DNA from: Isoetes taiwanensis
Lineage: Eukaryota; Streptophyta; Lycopodiopsida; Isoetales; Isoetaceae
Direction: 5' to 3'
DNA: 64,000 nt
NCBI GenBank assembly: GCA_021234155.1
Contig: JAJEKV010000039.1
Coordinates: 1,738,001 to 1,802,000 of the forward strand
Position numbers and translations under genes: made by a program. Each line of letters starts with the position of its first letter. Within the stretch, counting starts at the first letter, position 1. Of the stretch, positions 12,351 to 49,705 are shown in pieces. The notes under the pieces were generated by a model, which saw only the letters and a program-made list of their open reading frames with translations, ran no database searches and was not told the origin of the DNA.

Positions 12351-12980
12351 TTCGCTGATTCTGTTGTTTGCCATTATGGCATTCCCTGTATATTTGCTAT
12401 TTGCTATTTCCTGTATCAACTATGGAACCTCAAAACATAATCTGCCAATTGCTATCTGGCTGCATTGTTCTTCGTTGATCCTGCTTTGTCAACTAAATAA
12501 AAATTGCAAAATGAGAGTCCAAATATGCAGCAAAGGAGTCCAAACTCAAACATTCCTGCAAGCTTCACAACGGATATTTAGAAAGAAATCTGAACATAAA
12601 AGGAAAAAATGCCATGTGGTTGAGTCAGCCAGCAGAAGAAGAAGAACAAAGTGGTAAGGGAGTTTAAGGCTAACAGTCAGATCCAAAAAATGGAACGTAG
12701 CCAGTGTTTTGGCGCACCAAAAACTAAGGGTTCATTATTTGACCCACTATTAAAGGTGGGACAGTGGAATCCACAATGTGTACAGCTCAAAGCTGGTAAT
12801 AGCAAAGCACACTCGCATGGCCATGAAGCCAAATAGAAGTGGGGTGCAGGTATCAATAGAAAATAAGATAAGCCCTCCAAAAGGGCTACAATGAACCAGC
12901 ATGATGAGCTAGTAGCACCCTCCTGAGGGAGCTCGCCCATGCTACATCAGTTCAGGGGCCTCAGGGCACTAGGGACAATA

Positions 12981-13028
12981 ATTCTATTCTATTCTATTCT
13001 ATTCTATTCTATTCTATTCTATTCTATT
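12981..13028. repeat. (ATTCT)n microsatellite
   Basis: Nine full pentanucleotide units plus a partial one, without interruption. No gene is attached to it. Confidence 0.95.
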
Positions 13029-13261
13029 GCTGCAAAAAGAGACCATCAGATTGTTGCAAATCCAAAATTTCGAGTAAAGATGTACAAAAGCTAGCTAGAA
13101 AGAGTTCTGTTGGCTTTGAGTATCTTTCTATTATGTTTGAAACCCTTTTGTCATGCTTTTAAGCCCTGTAACATTCAGTCTAGCTCTTTTTATGCTTTCA
13201 AGCTTTGTAACATTCACTGTATCTTTTTTTTTTAATTTTTAATTGTTAAGCTTTTGCATGG

Positions 13262-13544
13262 ATGAATGGCAGAGAATACCTGCAGAGTATTGCAGAGCAT
13301 GTGCCACCCAAAGGAATAGAGGTACAGATTATAGGTCATGATGGCATTCAAATGCCAATTTGGCATACATGAGTTTCATCTTATATACAGAATGGATGGG
13401 CCAAGATACAAGCACTATACCCTGAAATTAGGGGACCTTCTTACGTTCAAAATTATAGCAGATTGCATCTGGAAATTGGAATTACAGAGATTTGAATGTT
13501 TGAAGTCTGTTTTAATCTTATTCAAAGAGAATAGTATAGAATAG
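13262..13544 (+). pseudogene. B3-like DNA-binding domain remnant
   Basis: Read across frames, this stretch gives EHVPPKGIEVQIIGHDG, then WH, then NGWAK, then LKLGDLLTFKII and WKLELQRF. This follows the order of a plant B3 domain: a basic start, strand with DG, W, a GW(x)F-like turn, LxxGDxxxF and a last strand. The frames do not join (a TGA at 13370 and at least one shift), so this is at best a dead copy or an exon with errors. B3 proteins are plant transcription factors. Its 13290-13370 part is also found in both arms of the hairpin at 30115-30299. I assign the family from motif order only. Confidence 0.4.
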
Positions 13545-13849
13545 ACACCTGTACTTCCTGGCAAAACTACCTGCTTGAGCCATGCTATTTTGTACCGATA
13601 TTATCTTATTATATGTCTTTTTGATTGCTCACTACATAATCACCGTATTATAGATTGTTAGTTATTTGCGTCCAAAGTCCATAATTTTCTTTTTGCACAA
13701 TGTTTTCTATTCATTAATAATTTAACAAAATTAACAAGAAGGGAGTATCTAATAATAGGAGTAGTTCTATTTGGTGCCCTCATTTATCTGCATGAACTTA
13801 TGCACGTTAACTATTGCCCTTATTATTATGGCCGTGAAGCTCCCACACT

Positions 13850-15860: not shown

Positions 15861-16208
15861 ATTTTTGGACAGAAAAAGAGATGTGAAAGAGATTCGCTAG
15901 CCTGGGCAATTTTTAGAAGTCGAGTCGTGGCGATGGCCTGCCGTGCACGTGGAGCGGATGGAGCAGAGCAGAGGCACTTCCGGCGAGAGGCTTCCAGTCG
16001 TCATGTAGTACCAGGTTAGTGTGCTCCTTGTTCTTCGCCATGTCGTGTCGCAGTTCCAGGTATTTATGTGGTCTGTATGAGCTGCTTTTCCGAGAGTTTT
16101 TGAGGTGGGCTTCATCCTCCGTCTGCTTATAGCTGCATCTTGTTATTGTGGTGTTGCTGCTGCAGTGGACTTCTTGTTCCGGCTTTGCTACTCTGCAACT
16201 CAGGTAAC

Positions 16209-17237
16209 ATGTTGAAGAGGGCAGCTAGATGTAGAAAACAGACCTTTCATTCTGAGGCTAAATTTCCTTGTGTTGAGGATGCTTTCTCTGTGGGGGATGG
16301 GGAGGGCACGTCCAAGGGCAGGGGTAGAGTAGAGGGTGAGGATGAGGGCACCGGCCTGTTGGATGTGAGCCTTACTCTGGGTTATGCTGGGACTGATGTT
16401 CCCGTTGCCATGTTTGACAAGCTTGTGGATGTTTTGAAGACCCAGACTGTTGCTGGTGCTGTAGCTCTTGAAAGGGGATCAGAGCTTGACCATCTGCACT
16501 GCCAGGGGGTGCTGAAGAGCACGTTCAAGACCCCTCGTGCTGTCAATGCTGCCATCAAGAGGTTCTTTGGGTGGGGATCTCAAAGGCCGGCAGACATCCT
16601 TCTAATATGCAAGGCTCTTAAAAATACGAGGATGCATTGTTTTGAGGGCTTGGTGGGATACTGCTTGAAGGACCTTGGTAAAGTGCACTTCAAAGTGTGC
16701 TTGCACAATGTCTCTGAGAGGCAGATCGAGATGGGGAAGGATCTCTACCTGCTTCATGGTGCAGGTGACCTGAAGAGTGTGGTTGTGTTGGATAACAGAA
16801 ATTTGTTGCACAGGGCCCATCACTTTGTCAAATACCATGGCAGGAAGCAGCTATCTGCTTCTCTTGTGTATACTGTATGCCGGATGCTTAGGACTGGCAA
16901 GTTCATTTTGTCTAGTCAATGAATTTTGCCTACTAATTGTGCTTTTATTTCAGAGCATAGGGTGAAGGCAGCATGGAGAATAACTCTTAATCCTTCGCAG
17001 GCCATGCCTAGTGATGTACGATGTGTGATTTTCAATGTCCCTGCAGGTATGCAACCTATGGAGCGCATAGGCAAGGCACGTAAGAGGTATTATGATGATG
17101 TCCCAAGTCCTGGAGATGGGGATGAGGGTTTCGTGGACATTGCGGAAGACGAATTCAGGCCTGGGATGGAAGAGACGTCTGAGCAACCAAATTACATCTC
17201 TTTGGATTGTGCTGATTATACAATGGCTGTTAATTGA
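16209..17237 (+). CDS. HUH endonuclease (Rep-like, Replitron-like)
   Basis: The open frame starts at ATG 16209 and reads to 16922. After a stop (TGA 16920-16922) the same frame continues to 17237. Removing 16897-16953 as a GC-AG intron keeps the frame and joins ACT-G to AG-CAT (Glu-His). Key motifs are ALERGSELDHLHCQG, with the metal-binding His-Leu-His (16491-16499), and GYCLKD (YxxK, around 16656-16673) carrying the likely nucleophilic Tyr. This pairing is the signature of rolling-circle Rep HUH endonucleases, which nick single-stranded DNA and stay bound to its 5' end. No helicase domain is visible. The C-terminal part is acidic. Replitrons, recently described eukaryotic HUH transposons, are the closest fit I know; a Rep captured from a CRESS-DNA virus or plasmid is the alternative. 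Confidence 0.7.
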
Positions 17238-23753: not shown

Positions 23754-23761
23754 CATACGCT
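23754..23761. repeat. Target site duplication, left (CATACGCT)
   Basis: CATACGCT directly precedes the CAGGGATAGGTTC terminus and is repeated exactly after the right terminus at 34425-34432. Eight bases is the normal duplication length for hAT transposition. Confidence 0.97.
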
Positions 23762-24120
23762 CAGGGATAGGTTCTGTACGTATGAAATTATTTTTTCAGA
23801 CGTATAAAGTCCAAAAATACGTATTTTTGGGTAAAATACGTATTTTTCGTATTTTATACCCGCCGGCCGGACAAAAAAAATTTCGCGTAAGCGAAACCTT
23901 CTGTTTCGCTTACGCGAACTTTTTTTCGCGTAAGCGAAAGCTTATTTTTCGCTTACGAGAATCTCCTTCCCGAATCCCCTAAGCGAAGTCTTAAGTTTCG
24001 CTTACGCGAAACTTCTTTCGCGTAAGCGAAACAGATATATTCGCGTAAGCTGTTTTATAAGTTTCGCTTACGCGAAGGGAGTTTCGCGTAAGCGAAACAG
24101 TCGTTTTCGCTTACGCGAAG
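23762..24120. repeat. Left subterminal array of TTCGCGTAAGCGAA palindromes
   Basis: After the terminal repeat come several ACGTATTTTT-like motifs, then about ten copies of TTTCGC(GTAA/TTAC)GCGAAA in both orientations between 23881 and 24119. Many clustered short motifs near an end are typical of transposase binding sites in hAT elements. Each copy can also form a six-base stem. Confidence 0.85.
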
Positions 24121-24126
24121 TTTTCT

Positions 24127-24137
24127 TTATATATAAC
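24127..24137 (+). promoter_or_regulatory. Probable TATA box for the cargo transcripts
   Basis: TATATATAA directly follows the palindrome array and precedes a T-rich leader and the kinase gene on the same strand. Position and spacing suit a promoter at the left end of the element. Confidence 0.4.
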
Positions 24138-24139
24138 GA

Positions 24140-25163
24140 GACGCTTTTTCTTCATTTTTGCGCAGAACAAGGTAAACCACCTGTGCCCCTTTGCCTTTTT
24201 TTTCATTTTTCCTTAGTTTTTAGGCAAACCTAGTTAGTTTTTTGTTGTTTCTTTTATTGTAGGTCTGGGGTTCCTCCATAGTGAGGCCCTCGCCTGTTGC
24301 CCCCCTCCATTGAGGGGCGTGACGATGGTGAGCGTCTCGTTCTATGGTCGAATCCAGACTGCTTTTTATGAAAAAAATAATGAAAAAAAAAAAGAAAATA
24401 AAAAACAATAGAACAAAAAGAATAAAAAAATGAGGAAAAAAATAATGAAATAAAAATAAAAGAAAAAAATAAGTGAGAAATTTGGTTGCCTACCCTTTTA
24501 TCGACAACATTAGCAGTTAGTTTAGGGAGTTGATTAAGAGAGACTAGGTTTTAGAAGTTCGGAGTGATCCTTGGCTGAGGCAGTGACCCTCGCCTGGCGT
24601 GCCACATTGAATTGTGCCATGCCGAGGGTGGGTGTCATTGCTGATGTCGAGGATTGCTAGGGTCAACCTCCCATTGAGGTGTATAGCCCTCTCCTGCCGC
24701 TTGTTGGCTTCGGTCACGCGGTGCTGAAAGGTGGGTGTTGTACTCTTATGGAAGGTTAGGAGAATATTTAATGAGATATACTCTATTTTCTGACGGTGTT
24801 GTTGACGAAAGTCCAATACTAATATAGGTGTATATTTCATTAAATATTCGTGACTTTTCCAGGTGGTCTTATGCAATATGTTCAGTTGAGTGCCGCCAAC
24901 CTCTATGAGGGAGTTTCCTAATGGAGTCAGTAGCTGGGTCAGATCATACGTTAAACTTGTTGAAGAGAATGAGAAAAATGCATTTCATATAACCGTAACT
25001 GTCAAACTCAGTAGATTAACCATAGAGTGCCTATAACCGTCAACTTGAAACTCAGTAGGGTTCCTATAACCGTCAAGCTTGAAACTTAGTAGTTTACTAG
25101 AATCTTAATGAACTATTTCATGGCTTATTGACACTCACTAAAGTGGGTTTTTTTTTTCCCAGA
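24140..25163 (+). other. Leader/intron region before the kinase-like gene
   Basis: No coding run. It contains possible splice acceptors, TTTTATTGTAG near 24262 and a strong T-tract ending CCCAG at 25163, so it is most easily read as a 5' leader with introns. Stretches at 24250-24350 and 24570-24730 contain GC-rich partial self-complementarity (for example GTGACCCTCGCC against GGGTGGGTGTCA). Confidence 0.4.
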
Positions 25164-25235
25164 CTTTTAGGTATTGTTGCTGCTTTGCTACAGTTGGCAT
25201 ATCGCTATCTATACACAATTTCTTCTAAAGCTGCT

Positions 25236-26964
25236 ATGAATCCACAAGAGTTAGACGGGCTTAGACTAGAAGCAGCAGAGCCTCACATGAGCCCTAAAGA
25301 AGGACCTAGGGTAGAAGCAGAGCCTCACATGAACCCAGAGGCCGAGTCCTCTACTAAGATGCAGAGAAAAAGATCAAGACCCCAACAGCCATGGTCCTCC
25401 TTAAGACCCGCTTTAATGAATTGGCTCTGTGAGCGAATATGTGCTGCCACCCCATCTGAGTTAGAGTTGATTACTACAACAGACGAAGGATGGCTAGACT
25501 TCCACTCAAGCCTCATGAGGGATGCTGAGAGAGCTTTTGGGCCTCGAATGATAGACCTAGAACCTGAAAAGATTGATTCTGAAAGGTATGCTTGGATAGA
25601 TGGCAATGTATCCCGTACAACTGGAAATATGATTCATGCAGTGGCAAATCTAACTAGTCCGCACTTGAGAGAGTCTTTAAAAGATAAGGCTGTGGAATGG
25701 AACACAGCTTGGACGAATTGAAAGCTTAGAAAGGAAACCCATCAACCCCCCCCACCTAGTTAAGAAAGTGTTGGCACAGACTATTAGAGCCAAGCATCCT
25801 GGTGAGACTGATAAAGAGTGGGAAGCAAGAAAAAGGGCAGATGCCAAGACTATATGGTTTGCAATGGTGGATTCCTCTCAAATAATCAACAGGACCAGAA
25901 TTGGTTCAGGAACATATGGAACGGTGTTCAAATGCAATATCTTGGGTTCTAGTTTTCTTAAAGACGAACCCTATTGTGTTAAATTTCAGAATGATGATGT
26001 GCAGTTAGGTACGGCCAGGCCTGATGTGATAGTAAAGGCCATGATGAAAAACATGAGGGAATCACAAATGCAGGTTAGACATGGCTCTATCATACGCTGC
26101 ATTAGTCGTACAACTGGGTTGGAAAGAACAGGGTTGATATTTCCCTACGGGAATGGGGGTTCTTGTGCATCTCTTTTTGTGCATCATGGAGATAATGAGT
26201 TTGCCAGGCATGCATTTAAGAGATTAGGGTATAAGCCTACTGTCGAGGTCCACGTCCATAAGCTTGAGCAACGAAGAAAGCAAGAGTTATATGTTGCTCA
26301 AAGAGTGGGTGATCTAACTATGTCGTTTTTAAGCGGCTTGCTTAAGCTTCATAAAGAGCACCATTTACACATGGACTTGCACCCGGGCAATGTCTTGCTT
26401 CATTTTGAATTTAGGAAAGAGAGAGGATGCACAGACCCCCAGGCTGTTTATATTGGTATATGTGACCGGGGAGAAGAACGGCTAATAGGCGAGCCTGTGG
26501 AAGTGAAGCGGTGGGCATACAAAGGCATGGATGCTGCTGCCAAAAAGGCGATTGAGAATGAAAGGCTTGCCTATCCATACATGCATGATGATTTGTATTG
26601 GGGTCCAAAAAGAGATGGAACTAAGACGGTGCCTGCAAGGGTAGACTTCGATCTCTTAGGGGCAGCCTACTTTATCTATTACCTTGCTGATTTTGCACGC
26701 AAGCATTCTTTCTTGGAGACTATGGGTACCAATGAACAAAGCCATAGGTTTCGAAACATGTGCGATTATTTGAAGCACTGTGTCGAATCCCCAATACGAG
26801 ACAAGGCACACAAGTTTGATCTGAACCAGCTACTGAACACCATGCGGAGCATTTGGAATTGCTCTCCAACACATTGCACAAGACCCCAAACAGAATCAGA
26901 TTGGATTCCTCAAGTTGGGTTAGGTGCAGACGATGCTGACCAAGCTGGACCAAGTCACGCTTAG
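25236..26964 (+). pseudogene. Protein kinase-like protein (transposon cargo, one frameshift)
   Basis: ATG at 25236 follows a 3' splice site (TTTTTTTCCCAG, 25163). The first frame gives ~160 residues, with two copies of a short AEPHMxPxxE repeat and then a helical domain with no known match, and ends at 25721. The kinase part continues one frame over, read through PPHLVKKV near 25750, to a stop at 26962-26964. Kinase motifs: RIGSGTYGTVFKC glycine loop (25897-25935); VKF with the likely ATP-binding Lys (25981-25983); catalytic loop HMDLHPGNVLL (26368-26400); CDRGEE in place of DFG (~26464); RVDFDLLGAAYFIYYL as helix F. HxD and Asn are kept, so activity is possible if the frame is whole. A poly(A) signal AATAAA lies near 27036. 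Protein kinases are not normal hAT genes; the gene was probably captured. Confidence 0.75.
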
Positions 26965-27295
26965 CGTGCCATTTATGAGCTCTCTTGTACGCAACCAAAA
27001 AAATTATTGATTGAACAATTGCTTTAAATACATTCAATAAAACATCTTTGGCATTCTTATGTATTTATTTTTGTTGCACTTGTTTTTTTTTATAATTTAT
27101 AAGTCATATTGAGTTGTTTTTTATTTCGCGCAGTTAACGTAAAGCCTATCCGCAAGAAAACGAACAGACAACTTACCTAGTGCCAAACACAAAAGAATGT
27201 CTCAATAACCGAGTTCGTCTCATCGACAACCGAGTTCTTGTCATCAGCAGGCGAGAGAAGGGGCTGATGAAACTGGGCATGGAGCCAACTTCTCT

Positions 27296-28643
27296 ATGCC
27301 GTCCACTTTGAGAACTCCAGAACCAGATGGATTTGTATTCCCTTCTCTACCTACATTGTCAGAGGTTAGAGCACAACAGATACAGAGAGCAGATGAACAT
27401 GCTAGAATGAAGAAGCGCGTGCAAAAGAGTTGTTGAGGTTGAGGGCAATGGCAAAAGTGGCCAAGAAAGAAGGTGTCACAATTACAGAGATGCATGGAGT
27501 TGCATGTGACATGGGCCCAGGTTGTTGCCTGCATGGAGCGGATTTTGAGGATATCGAGGCCAATTTAGACGCCAAACAGTTTGACGTCGACTGGCCAAGC
27601 AGGAGAGCAGGTACGTATAAGGCATACGACTGCAAGATCCCTGAAGTCCGAGCTAAAGCTTTGGAGAGGTGGGTGCAAGTGAAAGGAACAATGATAAAAA
27701 ACCACGAATTCAGCAAGACGTTTGCCAAGCAAGTGTACTATGAGATTGTGAGAGGGGAGCCCGTAAATTATGCCAGTAGAAAGTGGAAACAAGGAAGCGG
27801 CAGTGGTAGCAGCAAGAGAGTGAAGCTCGCGGACGATTCTGAAAGCGCTCTTGGTGATGAGCCCGTGACTATAACCTATTTGCTTCAAGATGCCATAAAA
27901 CTTTTAGATGTGGCGGGGGTTGCAGCAGCAGGTGCAGTGACAGATGAGGTAGATCTGAAGGCTCAGTTAGAGAATGAAAGAAGTCGAAACCTCACTCTGT
28001 CAGAGGAAAACTTGTGCTTAAAAGATCGTGCAAATGCTCACGACAAGCTGCAGAATTACTAGACACGAAGAATCAACTTGCAGCTTTGGGTAGGGAAAAT
28101 ACGGTGTTGAGAGTAGACAATGAGCATATGCGCACAATATCAAGAGTCTTAGATTTTGATCCCCTTAGAGTCTCCAAGGAGCAGGGTATTGCATACCTCC
28201 CTCCCGAATACCTATATGACAGTCAGTGGGATAATGTAAAGAACGGGGACTTTAGATATTGTCAAGTGTGTGCGGACAATCTAACCCAAGTTGGTTGGTA
28301 TGCCTTAGGGTCTGGACATCGTCTGCATTTGAGGTGTTTGTTGGATTGGATGATGCGCAGTAGGTTCTGTCCAGCAGATGATGGATATATTATACCAGAG
28401 CGCCAGTATGCAATGCTCAACCTGCAATCACGCATGCCTCCCTTGCCACCTCTGATTGCTCGCAGGAGGGATGGAATAGCTCATGCGTTCCACACCCAAC
28501 GTGAAATGGACCTTTGGAGGGGGGTAGAAGAACCGCGTGAAGGTGAAGAGGTACCAGACATTAATCAGTACCTGCCGCCCGCTCCTGGGCTAGCAGGTGA
28601 TTGTGGTGCGAACGTGGATGCAGACAATTACTTAAACCCATGA
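27296..28643 (+). pseudogene. Coiled-coil protein with degenerate RING-H2-like domain (cargo)
   Basis: Reading starts at ATG 27296 (MPSTLRTPEPDGFVFPS) and needs two single-base corrections, near 27415-27425 and near 28050, to reach the stop at 28641-28643. Residues from the second segment include ARAMAKVAKK-type helix, a conserved-looking GCCLHGADFEDI stretch and a predicted leucine-rich coiled coil spanning the second break (LENERSRNLTLSEEN, then LAALGRENTVLRVDN). The RING-like part (28260-28380) reads CQVC, then GHRLHLRCLLDW (H-x2-H-x2-C), then FCPAD. It lacks the third metal ligand (Gly/Ser where Cys is expected) and the last Cys (Asp). It could therefore be a dead RING or a scaffold rather than an E3 ligase. 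An AATAAA at 28734 follows. It is 330 bases downstream of the kinase-like gene on the same strand. Confidence 0.65.
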
Positions 28644-28862
28644 GCTATCTACATTATTTTTTTGATATTTTTCCCTAAGATCTCAGATGCACATGAATTA
28701 ACCAACGTTCGTTGACGAGGATTTCTTTGTCTTAATAAAATTTTGGGGGTTGGGTTGCCGCATTGAGTTGTTTGTGTAATAGTTAAGTAAAGTAACTATG
28801 TGAGTGAGTCAAAACATCTGTGAGTGAGCAACCTATTTGACATCTGGACCTCATGTTAGGCC

Positions 28863-29041
28863 TTCTCGAAATTCTTGTTACCTTCTTTAGAAAGAGCGAG
28901 CTTTGCTCTGACTCTCTTTTGGGTGTCGCTGTGTCAATGTATCTCAGATACTTTGCTAGGTTATATTACACAAAGATGCCCAAAATGGGGGTCGGAGCAG
29001 AAATCGTTCGTTCTAGAGGAGGTTACAAGGGTTTTGAGTAC
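28863..29041. repeat. Hairpin A
   Basis: The left arm starts TTCTCGAAATTCTTGTTACC. The right arm ends GGTTACAAGGGTTTTGAGTA. The arms pair over about 75 nt with mismatches and wobble; the loop lies around CAGATACTTTGC. The arms are related to hairpin E. Confidence 0.75.
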
Positions 29042-29123
29042 TCTATTTTTATTGTGGCCGCGGATGATATCAGGCTAGTGGTTGCTTGTGATTCCGTTGG
29101 GGTAATTAGAGGTTAGTGATTGA

Positions 29124-29260
29124 TGGGTTCAAGCATCGAAACTTCCCAATCTTTCTTTCCCCTCCTCTTTGGGCAATGTAGCTTAGTTTATTACATGCTA
29201 AGTTCCATTGTCCAAAGAGGGGTGAAAGCAAGGCTTGGGAAGTCTCGATGCTTGCACTCA
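29124..29260. repeat. Hairpin B
   Basis: CAAGCATCGAAACTTCCCAA on the left pairs with TTGGGAAGTCTCGATGCTTG on the right, and pairing continues through CCTCTTTGGGCAATG against CATTGTCCAAAGAGG. The arms are about 60 nt. It is a tandem relative of hairpin C. Confidence 0.85.
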
Positions 29261-29289
29261 GGAGGTCGATTTGGGATGTTAGTGATTGA

Positions 29290-29427
29290 TGAGTTCAAGC
29301 ATCGAGACTTCCCCGTTTTTCTTTCCCCCGCCTCTTTGGGCAATGTAGCTTAGTTTACATGCTAAGTTCCATTGTCCATAAGAGGCGAGTGAAAGCAAAG
29401 ATTGGGACGTCTCGATGCTTGCACTCA
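29290..29427. repeat. Hairpin C
   Basis: Second copy of the hairpin B type: CAAGCATCGAGACTTCCCC pairs with GGGACGTCTCGATGCTTG. The outer ends TGAGTTC and GCACTCA and the loop-proximal TAGCTTAG and CTAAGTT are shared with B. Confidence 0.85.
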
Positions 29428-29439
29428 GGTCTCTTTCAT

Positions 29440-29572
29440 CCTGGCTTAGTCTCTTTTGCTTGTCCTGTTTATTGTATCTAAAGTGCCCCCTGGGATGAGA
29501 TCGCTCGCTCATTTTAGGGGGCACTTTAGATATATATAAACAGGAACATCGAAAAGAGAGTAAAAAGCCTGG
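29440..29572. repeat. Hairpin D
   Basis: Left arm CTGGCTTAGTCTCTTTTGC...CCTGTTTATTGTATCTAAAGTGCCCCCT. Right arm GGGGGCACTTTAGATATATA...CAGG...AAAAGAGAGTAAAAAGCC. The pairing TCTAAAGTGCCCCC/GGGGGCACTTTAGA is perfect. The loop is about 25 nt (GATGAGATCGCTCGCTC). Confidence 0.85.
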
Positions 29573-29649
29573 AGCGTGACCCTCTTGAATGGTTGTCAAC
29601 TCACCAGGCTTGATATTGTTCGCTTCAAACAATATAGACTTCTCGAAAT

Positions 29650-29806
29650 TCTTGTTACCTCCTCTAGAAAGAGCGAGCTTTGCCCTGACTCTCTTTTGTA
29701 GTCTCTCTCTGTCAATGTAGCTTAGTTACTTTGCTAGGTTATATTACACAAAGAGGCTCAAAATGGGGGCCGGAGCAAAAATCGTTCGTTCTAGAGGTAG
29801 AAGTTG
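29650..29806. repeat. Hairpin E
   Basis: Related to hairpin A: CCTCTAGAAAGAGCGAGC pairs with TCGTTCGTTCTAGAGG across a loop that contains GCTTAGTTACTTTGC. An outer stem may close at 29990-30020 (GTAGGTAACAAGG), in which case hairpin F lies inside it. Confidence 0.7.
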
Positions 29807-29810
29807 CTAT

Positions 29811-29984
29811 GACGTCAGAGGTGAGAGCGCACTCTAATTTCAAGCCAAAGTGGTGCCTGGGCGTTGTCCATCTATATAGCGGCTGTTAGGCACCAAATCA
29901 TGGAACATCTTAACTCCTGCTATTGATGGAGAACCTTGAGCATCACTATAACTTGAAATTAGAGGACGCGTCCCCTTTGGCGAG
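29811..29984. repeat. Hairpin F
   Basis: CTCTAATTTCAAG at 29834 pairs exactly with CTTGAAATTAGAG near 29946. Weaker pairing extends on both sides (GACGTCAG...GCGCACT against GGACGCGTCC, and GTGGTGCC...CCATC against GATGG...GCATCAC). Confidence 0.7.
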
Positions 29985-30114
29985 GTGGTGGATTGTACAT
30001 CGACGTAGGTAACAAGGTTTTTGAGTACTCTTTTTTTATTGTGGCAGCGGATGATATTAGCCTAGTGGTTGCTTGTGATTCTGTGGGTTCATTTGAGATT
30101 ATAGTGATTGACGA

Positions 30115-30299
30115 GTAACTTCGGTATGCCAAATCGGCATTTGAATGCCATCAGGACCTATAATTTGTACCTCCATTCCTTTGGGTGGCACATGCCATGC
30201 AAACCCATTTGGTATTCAGAGCATGTGCCACCCAGAGGAATAGAGTACAAATTATAGGTTCTGATAGCATTCAAAGCCCAATTTGGCGTACCGAAGTTA
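30115..30299. repeat. Hairpin G, arms homologous to the B3-like locus
   Basis: Arms of nearly 90 nt: AACTTCGGTATGCCAAAT on the left pairs with ATTTGGCGTACCGAAGTT on the right, and GGGTGGCACATGC pairs with GCATGTGCCACCC next to the loop. The right-arm sequence, from GAGCATGTGCCACCC to CAATTTGGCGTA, is also found in the sense orientation at 13290-13370. Confidence 0.9.
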
Positions 30300-30365
30300 T
30301 TCCCAATTTGGCGTACACATGAAAGAAACATAGAAAGAACCAGCATACATGAACGAATCATTCAT

Positions 30366-30533
30366 GTACCTTGTGAACCTTCTGATGGATCAGATTCGTC
30401 CAAGCTGGTCCGTGGCTGTTTGGCCCCTTCGCGTGCGTAGATTACTTCTCATCAGCAAGATTCTGTGGCATGCGAAGAGGCAAGCAGCAACGGAAGTCGA
30501 GACGGGTCTGATCCGAGGAGGGTTCTCAAGGCA
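30366..30533. repeat. Hairpin H
   Basis: GTACCTTGTGAACC pairs with GGTTCTCAAGGCAC. GGATCAGA pairs with TCTGATCC. CCCCTTCGCGTGC pairs with GCATGCGAAGAGG around a loop with TTACTTCTCATCAGC. The loop-side sequence is shared with hairpin I. Confidence 0.8.
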
Positions 30534-30593
30534 CTAAGTTCGACGGAGGTAAGGGAACATGGTGATGCATAATCATTGGTTGGAGAGTGGATC

Positions 30594-30764
30594 GTGTATC
30601 TAGTGAAATCTCGTATCCGTCAAAGTCGTCTCGACTGATCCATGGCCATTTGACCCCTTGGCATGCGTAGATTACTTCTCATCCGCAAGATTCTGTGGCA
30701 TGCGAAGAGGCAAGCGTCAACGGAAGTCAAGCCGGCTTTGGCGGGTGCGAGGTTTCTCTAGGCA
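30594..30764. repeat. Hairpin I
   Basis: Tandem relative of hairpin H: GTATCTAGTGAAATCTCG pairs with CGAGGTTTCTCTAGGCAC, and CCGTCAAAG pairs with CTTTGGCGG. The apex (CGTAGATTACTTCTCATC) is nearly identical to that of H. Confidence 0.8.
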
Positions 30765-31001
30765 CTTAGGTCGACTGATGTTACACATGAATGAAACATG
30801 GACCGAAGTTACATGAACCATCATACATGAAACATCATACATGAAAGAAACATAAAACAAGGTGACGAAATATATAGAAGACAAAAACTTGTAACAAAAA
30901 ACTTCACTTTTTATTCATAGTGCCAGAATGGTTACAATAGTTTGAACATCCTCATACACGGTTACAATAGATAGACTGAGGGTACTCATCACATCATCTT
31001 T
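30765..31001 (-). terminator. 3' end region of the transposase transcript
   Basis: ACATGAA-rich short tandem repeats (30785-30860) followed by TTTTTATTCATA at 30908-30919, which on the minus strand reads TATGAATAAAAA and contains the AATAAA poly(A) signal about 90 bases beyond the transposase stop. Confidence 0.45.
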
Positions 31002-33568
31002 CTAGACATCACCTTCTTCATCAGTTTCATCATCCGGGCTTCCGTCCTCTTCTGCCTGCTGACCTAGGTTCAACCTCCTCTGGCCCTTTCCCTTACTGCA
31101 ACGTCCTCGAGATGTGTTTCTTCTGACACGTTGCCTGTTTATCTGGGTCATTGGCATTGGAGAGTCCGCTGGGTCACGTATCATTAAGTCCTCAAGCAGA
31201 TCTCCTGTATTACTTGGACCTGGCCTTTCTGTATCAGACTCCTCTTCTGTATCTTCGTTGTCGTTTGAGTCGTCCGAGAATATGTTCTTGTCTAAATCAT
31301 CTTCGGCATCAACAAAATGGGTACATTGAATGTCCTCATCAACATGGTTAGCGGCATTTACAGCAAGCAGCTCGTCCTCACTGTCTTCGAAGTTGTCCTC
31401 TTCCACTTTAGAATCTGCATCCATGAAAGGAAACTGTAGCTTATCAACTACGGCTGCACCATTGTTGCGATTCAAGAGCCGCCAATTTGAGAAGTTATAT
31501 ACAAGTTTGTCAGCCTTCTTATGCAAGAGGCGATTTCGTGTCATGCTATGTATGTACTTATAAGCACTCCAGTTCCTCTCACTTGCACTATTGAAGGATA
31601 CCAAGGAGAGGATAGTCATTGCAAGGGCCTGTAACGTATCAGTAACCTGTCCATGGGCTTGCCACCATGCATAAGATTCCATATTTGGTTCCTTCTTGTG
31701 ACTCTCCAGTGCATCGTGAAGCTCTTCATCTGCCCACCTTCCACTCAAGTTCTGGTATTCAGTTAACTCGGCAATGAAAATTTTGTAGTCCGAGCTGTTG
31801 GGGTAAAAGATTTTTGCAACCTTCTTCAATGAACCCATCACTTCTTTATCTGTATGCTGGTCCATATCGTGGTTGTGTGGGTCTAAGGCATGTGCGGCGC
31901 AATGAAGATCATTGTAGAACTTCTTCCATCGTTCATTGAAGTCTCTAAGCAGTGCTGCACGCTTAGCATTGTCAAAGGGTGCATTGGGGCCATCGCGTTC
32001 TAGAAAGGATTGAATGGAGTGCCAGCACCTCCAGACCTTTCCAGTGTTTGCCTTCGAAGAATCAAGGGTTTTGATGGCATGACAAACAGGTTGCATGCAC
32101 TTGACAACATTCTTTACGCCTCTCCAAAATGTCTCCCGCCCAAGCATTTCTCGAAGGGCGGCAGCTTGCTGCCGGTGTTTTGAAGCATTTTTTCCCTTCT
32201 GCCTCCTCTACCATTCAAAGAACTCTGTATGGTTGAAGGTCGAGATAATCGAGTCGCGACACCTAAGCACTCTTTCAAGACAAATTTAATTGGAACCAAA
32301 CCGAGTCTGGCCAGGATTCATGAGTGCTAGGGCCTTCTGACACAATGACTTATATATGGCGTAAATTGCCGGCTTCTTTGTGATGAATTTCACGAGACGA
32401 CGAGCCTTTTGAATGGGATCTTTGAACCAAGTGTGCTATGAAAACCAGTCCTTCAGCAATAAGTTTAGGCAAATTGGCAGCTGGTCGCGTGCAATCCTGG
32501 AAATTCAGACTCCAACAATTCACCCGCTAACTTACAATTAGACGCGTTGTCCATTACGACTTGAAATATTCTCTTCGGTCCAAAACTCTCTATCACAGCC
32601 TTTGTTTTCTGAAAAATCCAATCTCCTGTGATTTGGTCAGTTTTGATTTCTACGGTTTTCAAGAATACTTCGCCCCCTGGATACACGATCATGAAATTTA
32701 TAAGATGGTCCTTGTTTACATTGCTCCAACCATCAGTCACTAGTGAGGTGACACGGCCCGATAAGACGACTTACTTCATTTCCACCCTCTCGACCATTTT
32801 CCCGTGTATTTCATCCACCATTTTGTTATTGGCATGTTTGTATGAATGCAATCTAAAAGCCGGCCCTGCTTTGGCAACTTCCTGGAAGGCTTCTTTCATT
32901 GCTTTGTGCTCCAAAATATGTGGAGACAACCCGGCATATAAAAATGCCTCTACAACCTTCAATTGCGTCTTTTTTCGGTTGCTCGATGTTAAACCGGTCA
33001 ACCCTCTGTTGCTTAGTCTGTCTTTCCACTATCTCAATTGTCTCGCCATTCTTTTTCGCCGTACTTAACCCTCCTATCGACCCTAGTCCACCCCCTCCGG
33101 TTGGTACATTTGCCGGGGAGGGGTGGTGTAATTGATCTCTTCTTCTTGGCATGGTGAAGGTCCTTGGCTATCCTTTGGTCGTGTTCTTCTGCTGCTATTC
33201 TTTTTTGACCCAACACTTCAAGTGCATCTTGTCGTATGTCGCCAGGATCCGCAGGTACAAGTTTGCACCCCAATTTTAGGATCCGTAAAAGATGAGCTCG
33301 TATTCTTGTCGCGGATCCATTTATTGACGATGTACCCACAAAATAATGATTGCCACTCATTTCGACCAAATTCCTTCACAAATCCCCACTCGGGACCTCT
33401 CTTTTTGACCACCCGGTATTTCGACATATAATTCTTCCACGTCTTTGTTCCAACCCCTGTAGCCCTGCCATGACCGCGTGATGGCCGCGCACCCCTAGAC
33501 GATGATGCATGACCGCCGGTGGCGCCGGAAGTAGATGCATGGCGCCCGGTGGCGCGATGTAGATGCAT
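31002..33568 (-). pseudogene. hAT transposase (BED, DUF659, dimerization domain; broken frames)
   Basis: Read from 33568 downward. A low-complexity N-terminus is followed by GPEWGFVKEFGRNEW and, in a shifted frame, ATRIRAHLL...GCKLVP, the remains of a BED zinc finger. Next are VVEAFLYAGLSPHI (near 32950) and the DUF659 start MTDGWSNVNKDHLINFM (32740), with VVMDNASNCK. Then comes the C-terminal frame 32147-31002. That frame includes WWQAHGQ, LSLVSFNSASERNWSAYKYI and RNRLLHKKADKLVYN, the hAT dimerization domain (about 31685-31458). A long acidic Asp/Glu tail and a basic end (RRNTSRGRCSKGKGQRR) follow; that tail is unusual. Frames change at least three times between 33400 and 32150. The domains match plant hAT transposases, which cut at the terminal repeats and make 8-bp duplications, as seen here. 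Confidence 0.9.
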
Positions 33569-34014
33569 GACCGGTATGCCATCCCCGCCGCTATCTAAAA
33601 TTACCGTCTCGCCACGGTATGCTAAAGGGTAAAGACTCCTTAATCGTCCGAACTAAAGGCCGACGTCTATATACGCGAAGGACCAAGCTCACTACGCATA
33701 TATTACATCGACGTCCCGTTCGAACGTAAGGAGTGAAGGACAGGAACCTATAGGTCTCTAAGGAACAAGGTAGGAACCCAAGGTCGGGAAAACTCGTGAA
33801 GGAGGAATCTCACTTCACAATTCCGGCGCCGCCCCGGACATAAAAATCCACACCTCAAAGGCTGACCGTTTCCCAAGGAGTATGTGGACTCGACCTGGTA
33901 GTCAACGTTCGAGGCGAATTCTAGGGCTAAACACGGTTTTCTTATATATAATATTTCACCTGCACAAAATAGACCAAACACTGGCGCAAAAAGTTTTTTT
34001 CCCTTAGCAAAATG

Positions 34015-34424
34015 CCCTAAGATGCTTTGCAAACTTTTCGCCAAAAGCGAAACAACCGCTTTATTTAAACACGAAGATGTTTTCGCATAAAGTTTAAGCA
34101 GTTGATTTAAACTACGAAGTTTAAAAAATTTCGGCAGTTTAAAAAAAAAACAACGGTTTCGCTGCTGGCGTTCAATGTTTAAGAAACTGCGATTTTTAAA
34201 CACGAAAATTTTAAACTTCGCAAAGTTTAAATCATGTTTAAACTTCTGCTTGAAAAAACTTTTGGCGTAAAGTTTAAGCAGTTGTTTTTCGCTTATGCGA
34301 AATTTTTTTGACACCGAAAATTTTTTTGGACGTATTTTTGACGTATTAAACGTCAAATTCATGCCGTATCTTTCGAAAAATACGTATTACGTATAAAACA
34401 TATACAGCATTGAACCTATCCCTG
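34015..34424. repeat. Right subterminal array
   Basis: Degenerate copies of CGC(A/T)TAAAGTTTAAG, TTTAAACTTCGC and TTTTCGC(T/A)TATGCG, then ACGTATTTTTGACGT motifs and the terminal GAACCTATCCCTG. The 204-codon minus-strand frame here (34362-33748) is a by-product of the repeats. The motifs correspond to the left array but are more AT-rich and diverged. Confidence 0.75.
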
Positions 34425-34432
34425 CATACGCT
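34425..34432. repeat. Target site duplication, right (CATACGCT)
   Basis: Exact repeat of 23754-23761, directly outside the right terminus. Confidence 0.97.
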
Positions 34433-39891: not shown

Positions 39892-42306
39892 ATGTTTTGG
39901 AATATACATGGGCTTACACAAGCAAAAGCAGAAGCAGTTGCGGAACAAATTAAGCATTTTGATATGGTGCTGTTTTGTGAAACTTGAGAACACCAAGCCA
40001 GAGCTCTACCAGATATTGCAAACTTCATTTTGTTAGGCTCTGCATGGAATTTAAAAACACCTGGTGTAGGTAGAGGTAACGGAGGGTTGGCAGTTTATAT
40101 AAGGCCAGGGTTGCAGACTTCTATCTCAATTGTGAGAGTACAAGAACATAATCAGCATATGTGGATAAGGGTGAATATGCGGGATAAGGTGATTCACATG
40201 GCTTTATGCTATTATGCACCATTAAATATGAGTCTATACCAGCAGCAAGATCTAGACAGAAGCAATCCATTACATGCACTCTGCAAAGATATCATGGAAT
40301 TCATTGAATTGGGAGAAGTATTAATTGTTGGAGACTTTAACGCACGAACCAAAGGGGCTCAATCCGTCATATTTGAGCAGCCAGGAGATGTCCGCTTGCC
40401 CGAATATGTGGATTCAGGCTCTCTCAGAGCTTCAAATGATGCGGTTAAGAATCTAATGGGGGATTATCTGCTTGAATTGGGTACAATATGCGGTCTCTCC
40501 ATCATGAATGGAATGAGCAGGTTTCCAAACTCAGGAGGCTCTACTTGTTTTACCCCTTTGGGGGAAAGTACAGTAGACTATGCAATGTCCCTCAGAGACT
40601 TGCACCTAGTCACAGACTTTGAAATAGGTACCAAGTTACCAGAATCTGATCATGCCTATTTGAAAGTAGTCTTAGAAGGAACTACCATTAAACAACAAAC
40701 TGACAGGGTTTTCCAACCTAAGCTAAAGCTGGATTACACAAAAGGACCAGCTTTCAAACAAGCCGTGTCAGATGAGCTCGCTCAGATCAAATGGTCAGGG
40801 CTCCTAAGCAAGGATGATGCCATGTTAACAGAAGTTATGATCCATGCTGCAGGTAAAATTTTTGGATATACAAAGCAGAGAAAACCAGGGCACCATTGCA
40901 ATAGCTGGTGGGATCAGGATTGTCGTAGAGCCCGGGCAGTGCTGCAAAAAGGTATCAGAATTAAACCAAAGTGGTATAAAGATTTGATCAGATGTAAGAA
41001 GCGCACCTTTTTTAAGCAAAGACAGGAGTCATTAGGGCACTGGTTTACAAAATACCCAAAAACATTCTGGTCCAAATTGCTCGCCACAAACGTGCAGGAT
41101 ATGGTGAACATCAGCGGCATGTTGGAGATGGTGCAAATGCTCTACCATCAAGAAGTTGCAGGATCAATGAGGAAACTCCGCACTAACGAACTCATGTTCA
41201 ATGAAGATGATGTTAAGGAAGCTCTTTCGCACATGAAAAACGGCAAGGCCTCGGATCTACAAGGTATGTGTATTGAACTGTTTAAATGGGGAGGAGATGA
41301 TCTGATCACAGTGATCACGAACCAACTAAATGAAGCTGTCATTAATGGCCTGCCACAAGCCTGGCGAGAGACAAGGATCATTCCGATCCACAAATCTGGC
41401 AACAAGCTAGAAGCTAAGAATTACCGTACAATTTTGGTGGGCAGCATGTTTTCTAAATTGTTAGGCAGTTTGCTAGAATTCAAATTGAGTCGTTGGGCTG
41501 ATGAAAACAGTAAAAGGGCTCTATCTCAAGCAGGTTTCCGGAGGAATCACAGTACTCTGGATCATGCACTAACTCTCTGGGTTCTGTCAGAGAAAGCTAA
41601 AGCACCCAGGAAGTCTTTATATATGGCTTTTATTGACTTCTCTAAAGCTTTCGACACTGTGCCCAGGGATGGCCTCGATAAGCGAATGGAAAAGCTAGGT
41701 GTGCCGGACTCCTTGCGGAGCTCAGTGGCTTGCTTGTATGAGGAAGTGATCATCAAGTTGGGAACTGGAGCATCAGGCCCGGTATATAGAACCATAGGTG
41801 TACGACAAGGCTGCCCTTTGTCACCTACCCTATTTGGTCTGTACGTTGATGAACTCGAAGATTGGCTTCATAGCAGAGGTGTAGATGGCACCCCTTTAGG
41901 GAATTCTGTGGTCCAGCTTTTACTGTACGCAGATGATGTGGTTCTTCTAGCGGACAGACCTGAAGTATTACAACGCCATCTTGATGTGCTGGTACATTTT
42001 TGTAAGGAGAAGAAAATGCAGGTCAATATGGGGAAATCCAAGGCAATGATATGTGGGAACGTAAGTAGACCTGATTTGCTCTACAATGGAGAAAAGTTAG
42101 AAGTAGTAGACTGTTACAAATACTTGGGTCTAGAGTTCTGCTCTAATTACAGATGGAAAGAGTGCATAAAGAAAAGAGTTGCTGGAGGAAAAGTGGCTCT
42201 ATATGGCATGCTGAGGAAATGCCACAGATTATACCTCACGGATTGGGGTTTGAAAAAAATGTTATTTAAAACTTTGGTACAGACCGTAATACTGATCCGG
42301 CTTTAG
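39892..42306 (+). pseudogene. LINE ORF2: APE endonuclease plus reverse transcriptase, one stop
   Basis: ATG at 39892 (MFWNIHGLTQAKAEAV). The only break in 805 codons is TGA at 39985-39987, after LFCET; codon 46 onward is open from 40030. Endonuclease motifs are GDFNARTKG (40329) and SDHAYLKV (40645). RT motifs are NGKASDLQGM, FIDFSKAFDTVPRDGL, VRQGCPLSPTLFGL and catalytic YADD (41926-41937), followed by NMGKSKAM and the YLGLEF motif. It ends at VILIRL, earlier than related proteins, which continue with a YGxExW-like tail. A single nonsense change in an otherwise clean frame suggests recent activity in this genome, or a base error. Confidence 0.85.
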
Positions 42307-49506: not shown

Positions 49507-49705
49507 CAGGGATAGGTTCTGTATGTACAAGTCAAAAAATTTGGACGTATAAAGTCGAAAAATATATATTTTGGAGTATAAAATGTATTTCCCGTATTTT
49601 TCCTTGACGGTCGGAGAAAAAAATTCGCGTAAGTGAAACTTGAATTTCGCTTACGCGAAAAAAACTCCGTGTAAGCGAAACCTCTACTTCGCATAAGCAT
49701 TAGAG
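49507..49705. mobile_element. Second left end of the same hAT family
   Basis: Starts CAGGGATAGGTTCTGTA and follows the left end at 23762 closely: a GACGTATAAAGTC motif, a GTATTT(T/C) run, then TTCGCGTAAG/CTTACGCG palindromes, up to about 49690. No matching right end (GAACCTATCCCTG) was found between here and 64000, and the eight bases before it (GTGATATC) could not be paired. Either the element extends beyond the window or this is a severed end. Confidence 0.85.

Follow-up and report, generated by a model that had tools for sequence, protein, structure and literature searches.

Young plant MIRNA genes are explained by the inverted-duplication model, in which the arms of the foldback are extended copies of host exons in inverted orientation. 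A transposon can also carry such a foldback: in rice, CACTA transposons carry miR820, which targets OsDRM2, and a host DNA methyltransferase is thereby silenced (PMC3459959). Other known systems are the plant MIRNAs that derive from MITEs (PMC10004981), the anti-silencing VANC proteins of VANDAL elements (PMC10398659), and the host fragments that are captured by Helitrons or Pack-MULEs and act as siRNA reservoirs (PMC13317346).

The locus that we describe lies within a window of 64,000 nucleotides of the Isoetes taiwanensis genome (positions 1,738,001 to 1,802,000 of contig JAJEKV010000039.1; all positions below are counted from the first letter of this window). Much as in the inverted-duplication model, the arms of two hairpins, F and G, are inverted copies of host exons, and older copies keep longer arms; unlike that model, these hairpins are carried and multiplied by a transposon and stand in tandem with unrelated hairpins. 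As with miR820 (PMC3459959), we see a foldback inside a DNA transposon that is strongly similar to a host gene, is probably its copy, and spreads with the element. The transposon here is a hAT element rather than CACTA, in place of a single hairpin it carries an array of at least nine plus protein cargo, a single host exon is represented by two of the hairpins, and the gene is a REM-type B3 gene rather than DRM2. The foldbacks are transposon-borne like those behind MITE-derived MIRNAs, but they do not come from the element's termini, and host exons are the source of at least F and G (compare PMC10004981). If our reading holds, the element would resemble VANDAL in being a plant DNA transposon whose cargo acts against silencing, although the agents would be RNA hairpins rather than a protein and the effect is putative (PMC10398659). 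Finally, as in Helitron and Pack-MULE captures, host sequence has been taken up that could silence the donor gene, but here the fragments are set as hairpins in a modular array that is reused (PMC13317346). The initial annotation of this locus considered a DNA transposon with a hairpin cluster and protein cargo to be undescribed. Given miR820 (PMC3459959), that claim has a single-hairpin precedent; for arrays of this sort it stands in the open-licence literature that we searched, which is part of the literature.

The element is a hAT superfamily DNA transposon of 10,663 bp (23762-34424), as initially proposed. It begins and ends with an exact 13-bp terminal inverted repeat (TIR), CAGGGATAGGTTC, at 23762-23774 on the plus strand and, inverted, at 34412-34424 on the minus strand, and the 8-bp target site duplications (TSDs) on either side both read catacgct (23754-23761 and 34425-34432). 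A second copy of the element (L010) has identical TIRs at both ends. The minus-strand ORF at 31002-32207 encodes the C-terminal part of the transposase with its dimerisation domain (PF05699, E 3.9e-8, above cut-off); according to the ORF list, the N-terminal part has no single open frame upstream in the window copy. There are two cargo ORFs on the plus strand. The first, at 25681-26964, has a protein-kinase-like domain (PF00069, E 4e-7, which is 1.6 bits below its cut-off, and PF07714, E 1.6e-5, above cut-off). The second, at 27978-28643, has a weak RING-like C3HC4 motif (zf-C3HC4_2, E 0.0016, and zf-RING_2, E 0.0019, both scoring below the Pfam cut-off). In the cargo region (25101-28643, compared with L002, L003, L005, and L008), the copies fall into two lineages that are about 30% apart in DNA. 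Between the window and L005, whose copy has three stops, the kinase-like ORF has dN 0.32 and dS 2.7, and the ratio of 0.12 implies that the cargo was long under protein-level constraint. Two further strong foldbacks lie to the left of the cargo in the same element (24561-24660 and 24750-24865).

The cargo and transposase genes are convergent, and the array lies between them. It consists of nine stem-loops at about 28862-30776, in agreement with the nine long foldbacks that were first noticed. All are on the plus strand: A (28862-29043), B (29117-29268), C (29271-29436, a paralogue of B), D (29440-29570), E (29639-29803, a paralogue of A), F (29806-29989), G (30107-30307), H (30366-30534), and I (30586-30776, a paralogue of H). 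F sits within the 3' arm of E, and the outer portion of that arm, cut off from E by F, is at 30007-30087 (plus strand, 90% identical to 29020-29100). A and E are 90-95% identical over blocks of 60-97 nt, B and C are 85-100% identical over blocks of 24-54 nt, and H and I are 79% identical over 149 nt. These identities confirm the duplicated pairs that were originally recognised, and they support the description of a dedicated array that grew by duplication within a cargo-carrying hAT element.

It had also been suggested that the folding be checked against shuffled sequence, and the expectation of excess stability held. With pair spans of up to 260, the minimum free energy (MFE) of the plus strand is -915.9 kcal/mol, versus a mean of -546.8 for 100 dinucleotide shuffles (sd 14.4, lowest -588.5; z -25.7). 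So the foldbacks are more stable than chance, as is expected of plant MIRNAs. For the minus strand the MFE is -720.1 (z -12.1). When we scanned 20000-45000 with cmscan and Rfam, no described MIRNA family was found (the best score was about 29 bits, versus gathering scores of 54-90). Past the RING-like ORF there is an AATAAA at 28734, and past the transposase stop there is a minus-strand AATAAA at 30910; because these 3' end signals of the cargo and the transposase flank the array, it seems to form a unit of its own.

A DNA search of the species' own 1.66-Gb genome with the array gave at least 305 matches, from 40 scored of 1513 first-look candidates. We compared 30 fetched loci and the window, or 31 arrays. 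The same modules recur in all of these, with gains, losses, and reordering between copies. For example, an extra D-like hairpin, a paralogue of D, precedes A in 26 of the 31 arrays and is absent from the window copy (two of the five arrays that lack it may be clipped by the fetched stretch). Of the 271 hairpin copies at these 31 loci, 244 fold more stably as the plus strand than as the minus strand: 30/30 for A, 29/30 for B, 32/32 for C, 53/53 for D, 32/32 for E, 28/30 for F, 17/18 for H, and 16/17 for I, with G the exception at just 7/29. A peptide-coded search of the genome with hairpin G gave 627 candidates, of which 150 were scored. Among 12 G loci sampled from scored or related matches, 11 are arrays beside transposase coding sequence, and the twelfth ends in the transposase's 3' flank. 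At some G loci, three or four G hairpins stand in tandem with a spacing of about 171 nt.

The origin of hairpin G can be traced. When the array's 21-mers were scored against the rest of the window, there was a perfect 21-nt match at 13297. The surrounding stretch, 13287-13368, corresponds to one arm of G (92% antisense when set against the 5' arm, 88% when set against the 3' arm), and it has no second arm. Sequence comparison places it in a decayed copy of a REM-type B3 gene, outside the element, at 12478-13635 on the plus strand. Two more loci without a hairpin, L039 (C1040) and L040 (C463), share 380-470 bp around this stretch. Compared with L039, the window copy, which lies some 10 kb upstream of the element, has a shifted frame and carries insertions, among them an (ATTCT)n stretch; in L040, the sequence is broken within the exon. 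In L039, the G-matching stretch forms the final exon of a gene reading RIPIEFREHAPPKGMEVQIIGPDGIQMPIW..., and an intron of the form GTAAGT...GGCAG, identified by eye, joins it in frame to an upstream exon; both exons read open.

To describe these exons we used a profile of 25 B3 loci from this genome, which is weighted towards REM, includes a few non-REM B3 loci, and does not include L039. With this profile, the last exon of L039 is B3 at 23.6 bits (E 2e-6, and 4e-7 in a second comparison), versus 6.3 for the best of 1000 shuffles, and the upstream exon is B3 at E 2.6e-16. (The profile does contain L079, which lies in the L087 gene, so the score of the first exon of L087 is circular.) An earlier profile, mostly of other B3 types, gave the L039 exon 7.0 bits versus 6.1 for the best shuffle. 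The last exon also matches, at 41%, the exon that adjoins a Pfam-recognised B3 exon on the same contig (C1040:6502934). Neither a Pfam-A scan nor a PDB search recognised the L039 last exon as B3, and a G arm read as peptide had no match in Pfam or PDB. We conclude from these comparisons that hairpin G copies, in inverted form, the first half of the final B3 exon in a REM-type gene.

The complementarity of G to this exon is extensive. In the window, the 5' arm of G (30136-30189) and the L039 exon form an unbroken run of 54 pairs, one of them G:U. In every one of 47 G copies the unbroken complementarity to the exon, counting Watson-Crick and G:U pairs, amounts to 30 nt or more (mean 43.9, maximum 77), versus a mean run of 25.6 for the minus-strand transcript of the G copies. 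Long-armed relatives of G start where the exon itself starts (13274). Of 51 G copies, 42 have a 5' arm that is closer to the 54-nt target core than their 3' arm is (2 are equal and 7 are the reverse), but the core was picked from the window's own G 5' arm and we do not lean on this comparison. The complementarity of the other hairpins to L039 is no better than that of shuffled hairpins, and among the genes that we examined, only G shows the near-perfect complementarity to a host gene that is expected of a plant MIRNA.

Hairpin F comes from the other end of the same type of exon. In Smith-Waterman comparisons, F matches the second half of this exon in L086 (C1042), a relative of L039; the score is 53 in the sense orientation (z 10.8) and 40 in the antisense orientation (z 7.3), where the best of 60 shuffles is 32. 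A search with REM peptides led to older F hairpins at L105, L106, L107, L112, and L113, and in all five both strands match the L086 exon, with scores of 61-105 (maximum of 34 in 432 shuffles). L105 reads as B3 on both arms: PYIRNGWSKFRQLYGLKLGDLL (E 1e-9) and PYICNGWMKFKQVYGLKLGDLL (E 1e-8). The remaining four each have one arm that is clear as a B3 peptide and a second that is weak (E 0.006 to 0.03), and the window's F alone is also weak (E 0.043). Altogether, 14 of 20 fetched loci score higher against F or G than the shuffle maximum, and 8 of those 14 are REM-like exons outside arrays. These matches identify hairpin F as a copy, again inverted, of the second half of the final B3 exon in a REM-type gene. 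So G and F, which are neighbours in the array, correspond to adjoining parts of a single type of exon. The initial annotation's guess that host genes might be silenced thus gains direct sequence support for two of the six hairpin families.

As for the other families (A/E, B/C, D, and H/I), there was no match beyond chance among the B3 loci that we examined; for example, hairpin B scores 35 against L087, which is at the shuffle maximum. Peptide searches gave no source gene for A/E in the first 150 of 354 candidates listed, or for D in the first 150 of 301, and the seven D matches that we fetched are hairpins, not genes. A comparison of arm lengths that sought longer, more gene-like arms was uninformative. 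We also noticed that REM-like B3 exons have many near-identical copies in this genome, with equal open-frame lengths (97, 84, 82, and 71 aa), as if some repeat had dispersed the exons themselves. Neither F nor G is matched by four representatives of these copies (L108-L111). At several places, two B3 fragments also lie on opposite strands with about 1.4 kb between them (C977:1047937/1049392, C1064:6873486/6874940, and similar). We checked one such inverted pair, L085 (C977), and its fragments share no long inverted repeat.

What might the cassette do? The account that we consider most likely, to which we give about an even chance, is that it yields small RNAs like miRNAs or hp-siRNAs that lower the mRNAs of the REM family, to the element's advantage. 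We infer that the array would be transcribed as its own unit into a chain of long stem-loops suited to Dicer-like (DCL) enzymes. F and G arose by inverted duplication of the two halves of one last B3 exon, and one arm of each is antisense to it. DCL enzymes would cut the array's RNA into miRNA-like or hp-siRNA-like small RNAs, these would lower REM-family mRNAs (with the other hairpins acting on other transcripts), and lowered REM mRNA would favour the element. In Arabidopsis, four REM factors together with GDE1 recruit Pol IV complexes for 24-nt siRNA (PMC12270911), so REM genes are plausible targets of a counter-defence. This is speculative: the REM family is large and has many functions, and the link to silencing comes from Arabidopsis and from some REM factors only. 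A bolder version seems doubtful to us, namely that this is a modular RNAi arsenal, with tandem hairpins each copied from a host gene, two of them covering both halves of one REM-type B3 exon, in a cassette that is exchanged among transposon lineages whose cargo differs. The element would then evade or reshape its own silencing by shutting down REM factors that direct Pol IV and RNA-directed DNA methylation (RdDM).

If the small-RNA account is true, then one reusable transposon cassette would hold several silencing hairpins, at least two of them aimed at one host transcription-factor family, whose relatives place RdDM in Arabidopsis. The single example from rice, miR820, would be extended to a multi-target system, and it would be seen how host exons can turn into hairpins carried by a transposon. 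An arms race between elements and silencing would also become testable by small-RNA sequencing. A more practical point is that hairpin-derived copies of exons may pass for genes in this genome.

The alternative that survives best is that F, G, and perhaps other hairpins are captured gene debris: functionless inverted gene fragments that were amplified and are merely a source of siRNA, and so a liability. Plant transposons often capture pieces of genes and serve as siRNA reservoirs for the donor genes (PMC13317346). Nevertheless, we think that this is rather unlikely. Across the nine consensus hairpins, the plus strand has 60 G:U pairs versus 21 A.C mismatches (p 1.7e-5; the arms were aligned symmetrically, with Watson-Crick pairs only), while the decay of a DNA palindrome would give equal numbers. 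Since duplicated hairpins are not independent, we recounted with one member per family: the ratio is 40:13 for A, B, D, F, G, and I (p 2.7e-4) and 34:16 if E, C, and H replace A, B, and I (p about 0.015). The consensus of G has no plus-strand bias (3:6). Unpaired columns have no such strand bias and lean the other way, and covarying pairs are in modest excess (56 of 475, versus 20-40 in slid controls). Both the G:U excess in the consensus and the stability of the plus strand argue against debris. So do the recurrence of the array by the 3' end of the transposase in the 12 G loci sampled and the derivation of two adjacent hairpins from one exon. On the other side, mutations seen in single copies look neutral, with 120 that make G:U pairs and 129 that make A.C mismatches. 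Stem mutations common to 2-4 copies lean towards G:U (85:57, p 0.023), and those common to at least 5 copies show no bias (26:22). We see moderate evidence in these patterns for past RNA-level selection in an active lineage, combined with neutral decay of individual copies.

The divergence between copies bears on debris as well. Between the window's lineage and L002, L003, L005, L008, and L009, stems differ at 4.6% of sites (276/5954), loops at 8.0% (124/1552), and spacers at 5.8%, and the lower divergence of stems than of loops (p 6e-7) again argues against debris. In the same comparison, the transposase's 3' flank differs by 3.0% and its four-fold sites by 31.8% (221/695), and the block of low divergence has sharp borders near 28862 and 31000. 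We considered selection as the cause of this conserved block and rejected it, because within lineages the array diverges like the cargo and the transposase (for L002 and L003, 0.067, 0.061, and 0.059), which is also what debris would do. The simpler reading, which fits the similarity better than selection does, is that the array moved between lineages of the element as a module.

It is also possible, but distinctly improbable, that the foldbacks act as DNA: they would be independent miniature transposons (nested MITEs) or subterminal repeats that bind protein, with no function as RNA. The insertion of F in the arm of E would suit this idea, as would the presence of hairpin D away from arrays in four of the seven D loci that we fetched (L088, L089, L091, and L093). 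But we saw no obvious TIR or TSD on F, G is beside the transposase in the 12 loci sampled, the arms read as host exons, and the G:U bias is strand-specific and would be invisible at the level of DNA. At the four off-array loci, hairpin D is partly in tandem and adjoins sequence that these loci share.

We think it very improbable that the hairpins regulate the transposase or cargo of the element that carries them, which the initial annotation had raised as control of the element itself. The array does lie between the element's genes, and there are two 14/15-nt stretches of complementarity to the RING-like ORF (28245 and 28130). However, this idea failed when the array's 21-mers were compared with five parts of the element, drawn from the cargo, the transposase, and the terminal regions: 10-33 of 40 shuffled arrays did as well as the best array 21-mer or better. 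Also, F and G point to REM genes. Least credible of all is an RNA decoy, in which long stems tie up Dicer-like or dsRNA-binding proteins regardless of sequence, for although there are many long stems in one stretch and their number varies freely between copies, each hairpin's sequence is kept between copies and two match a host exon. We continue to prefer the account of small RNAs that lower REM-family mRNAs, at the strength given above.

The window contains other mobile elements. At 49507-49698 there is a third exact CAGGGATAGGTTC TIR, followed by sequence that is 75% similar to the left end of the element and carries the same TTCGCTTACGCGAA repeats; judging from this similarity, it is the end of a second, related hAT element. 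An ORF at 16104-16922 has the HUH endonuclease domain of a Replitron (PF21859, E 2.5e-19), which is a different kind of mobile element, and an ORF at 39988-42306 encodes a LINE-type reverse transcriptase (PF00078, E 2.9e-35).
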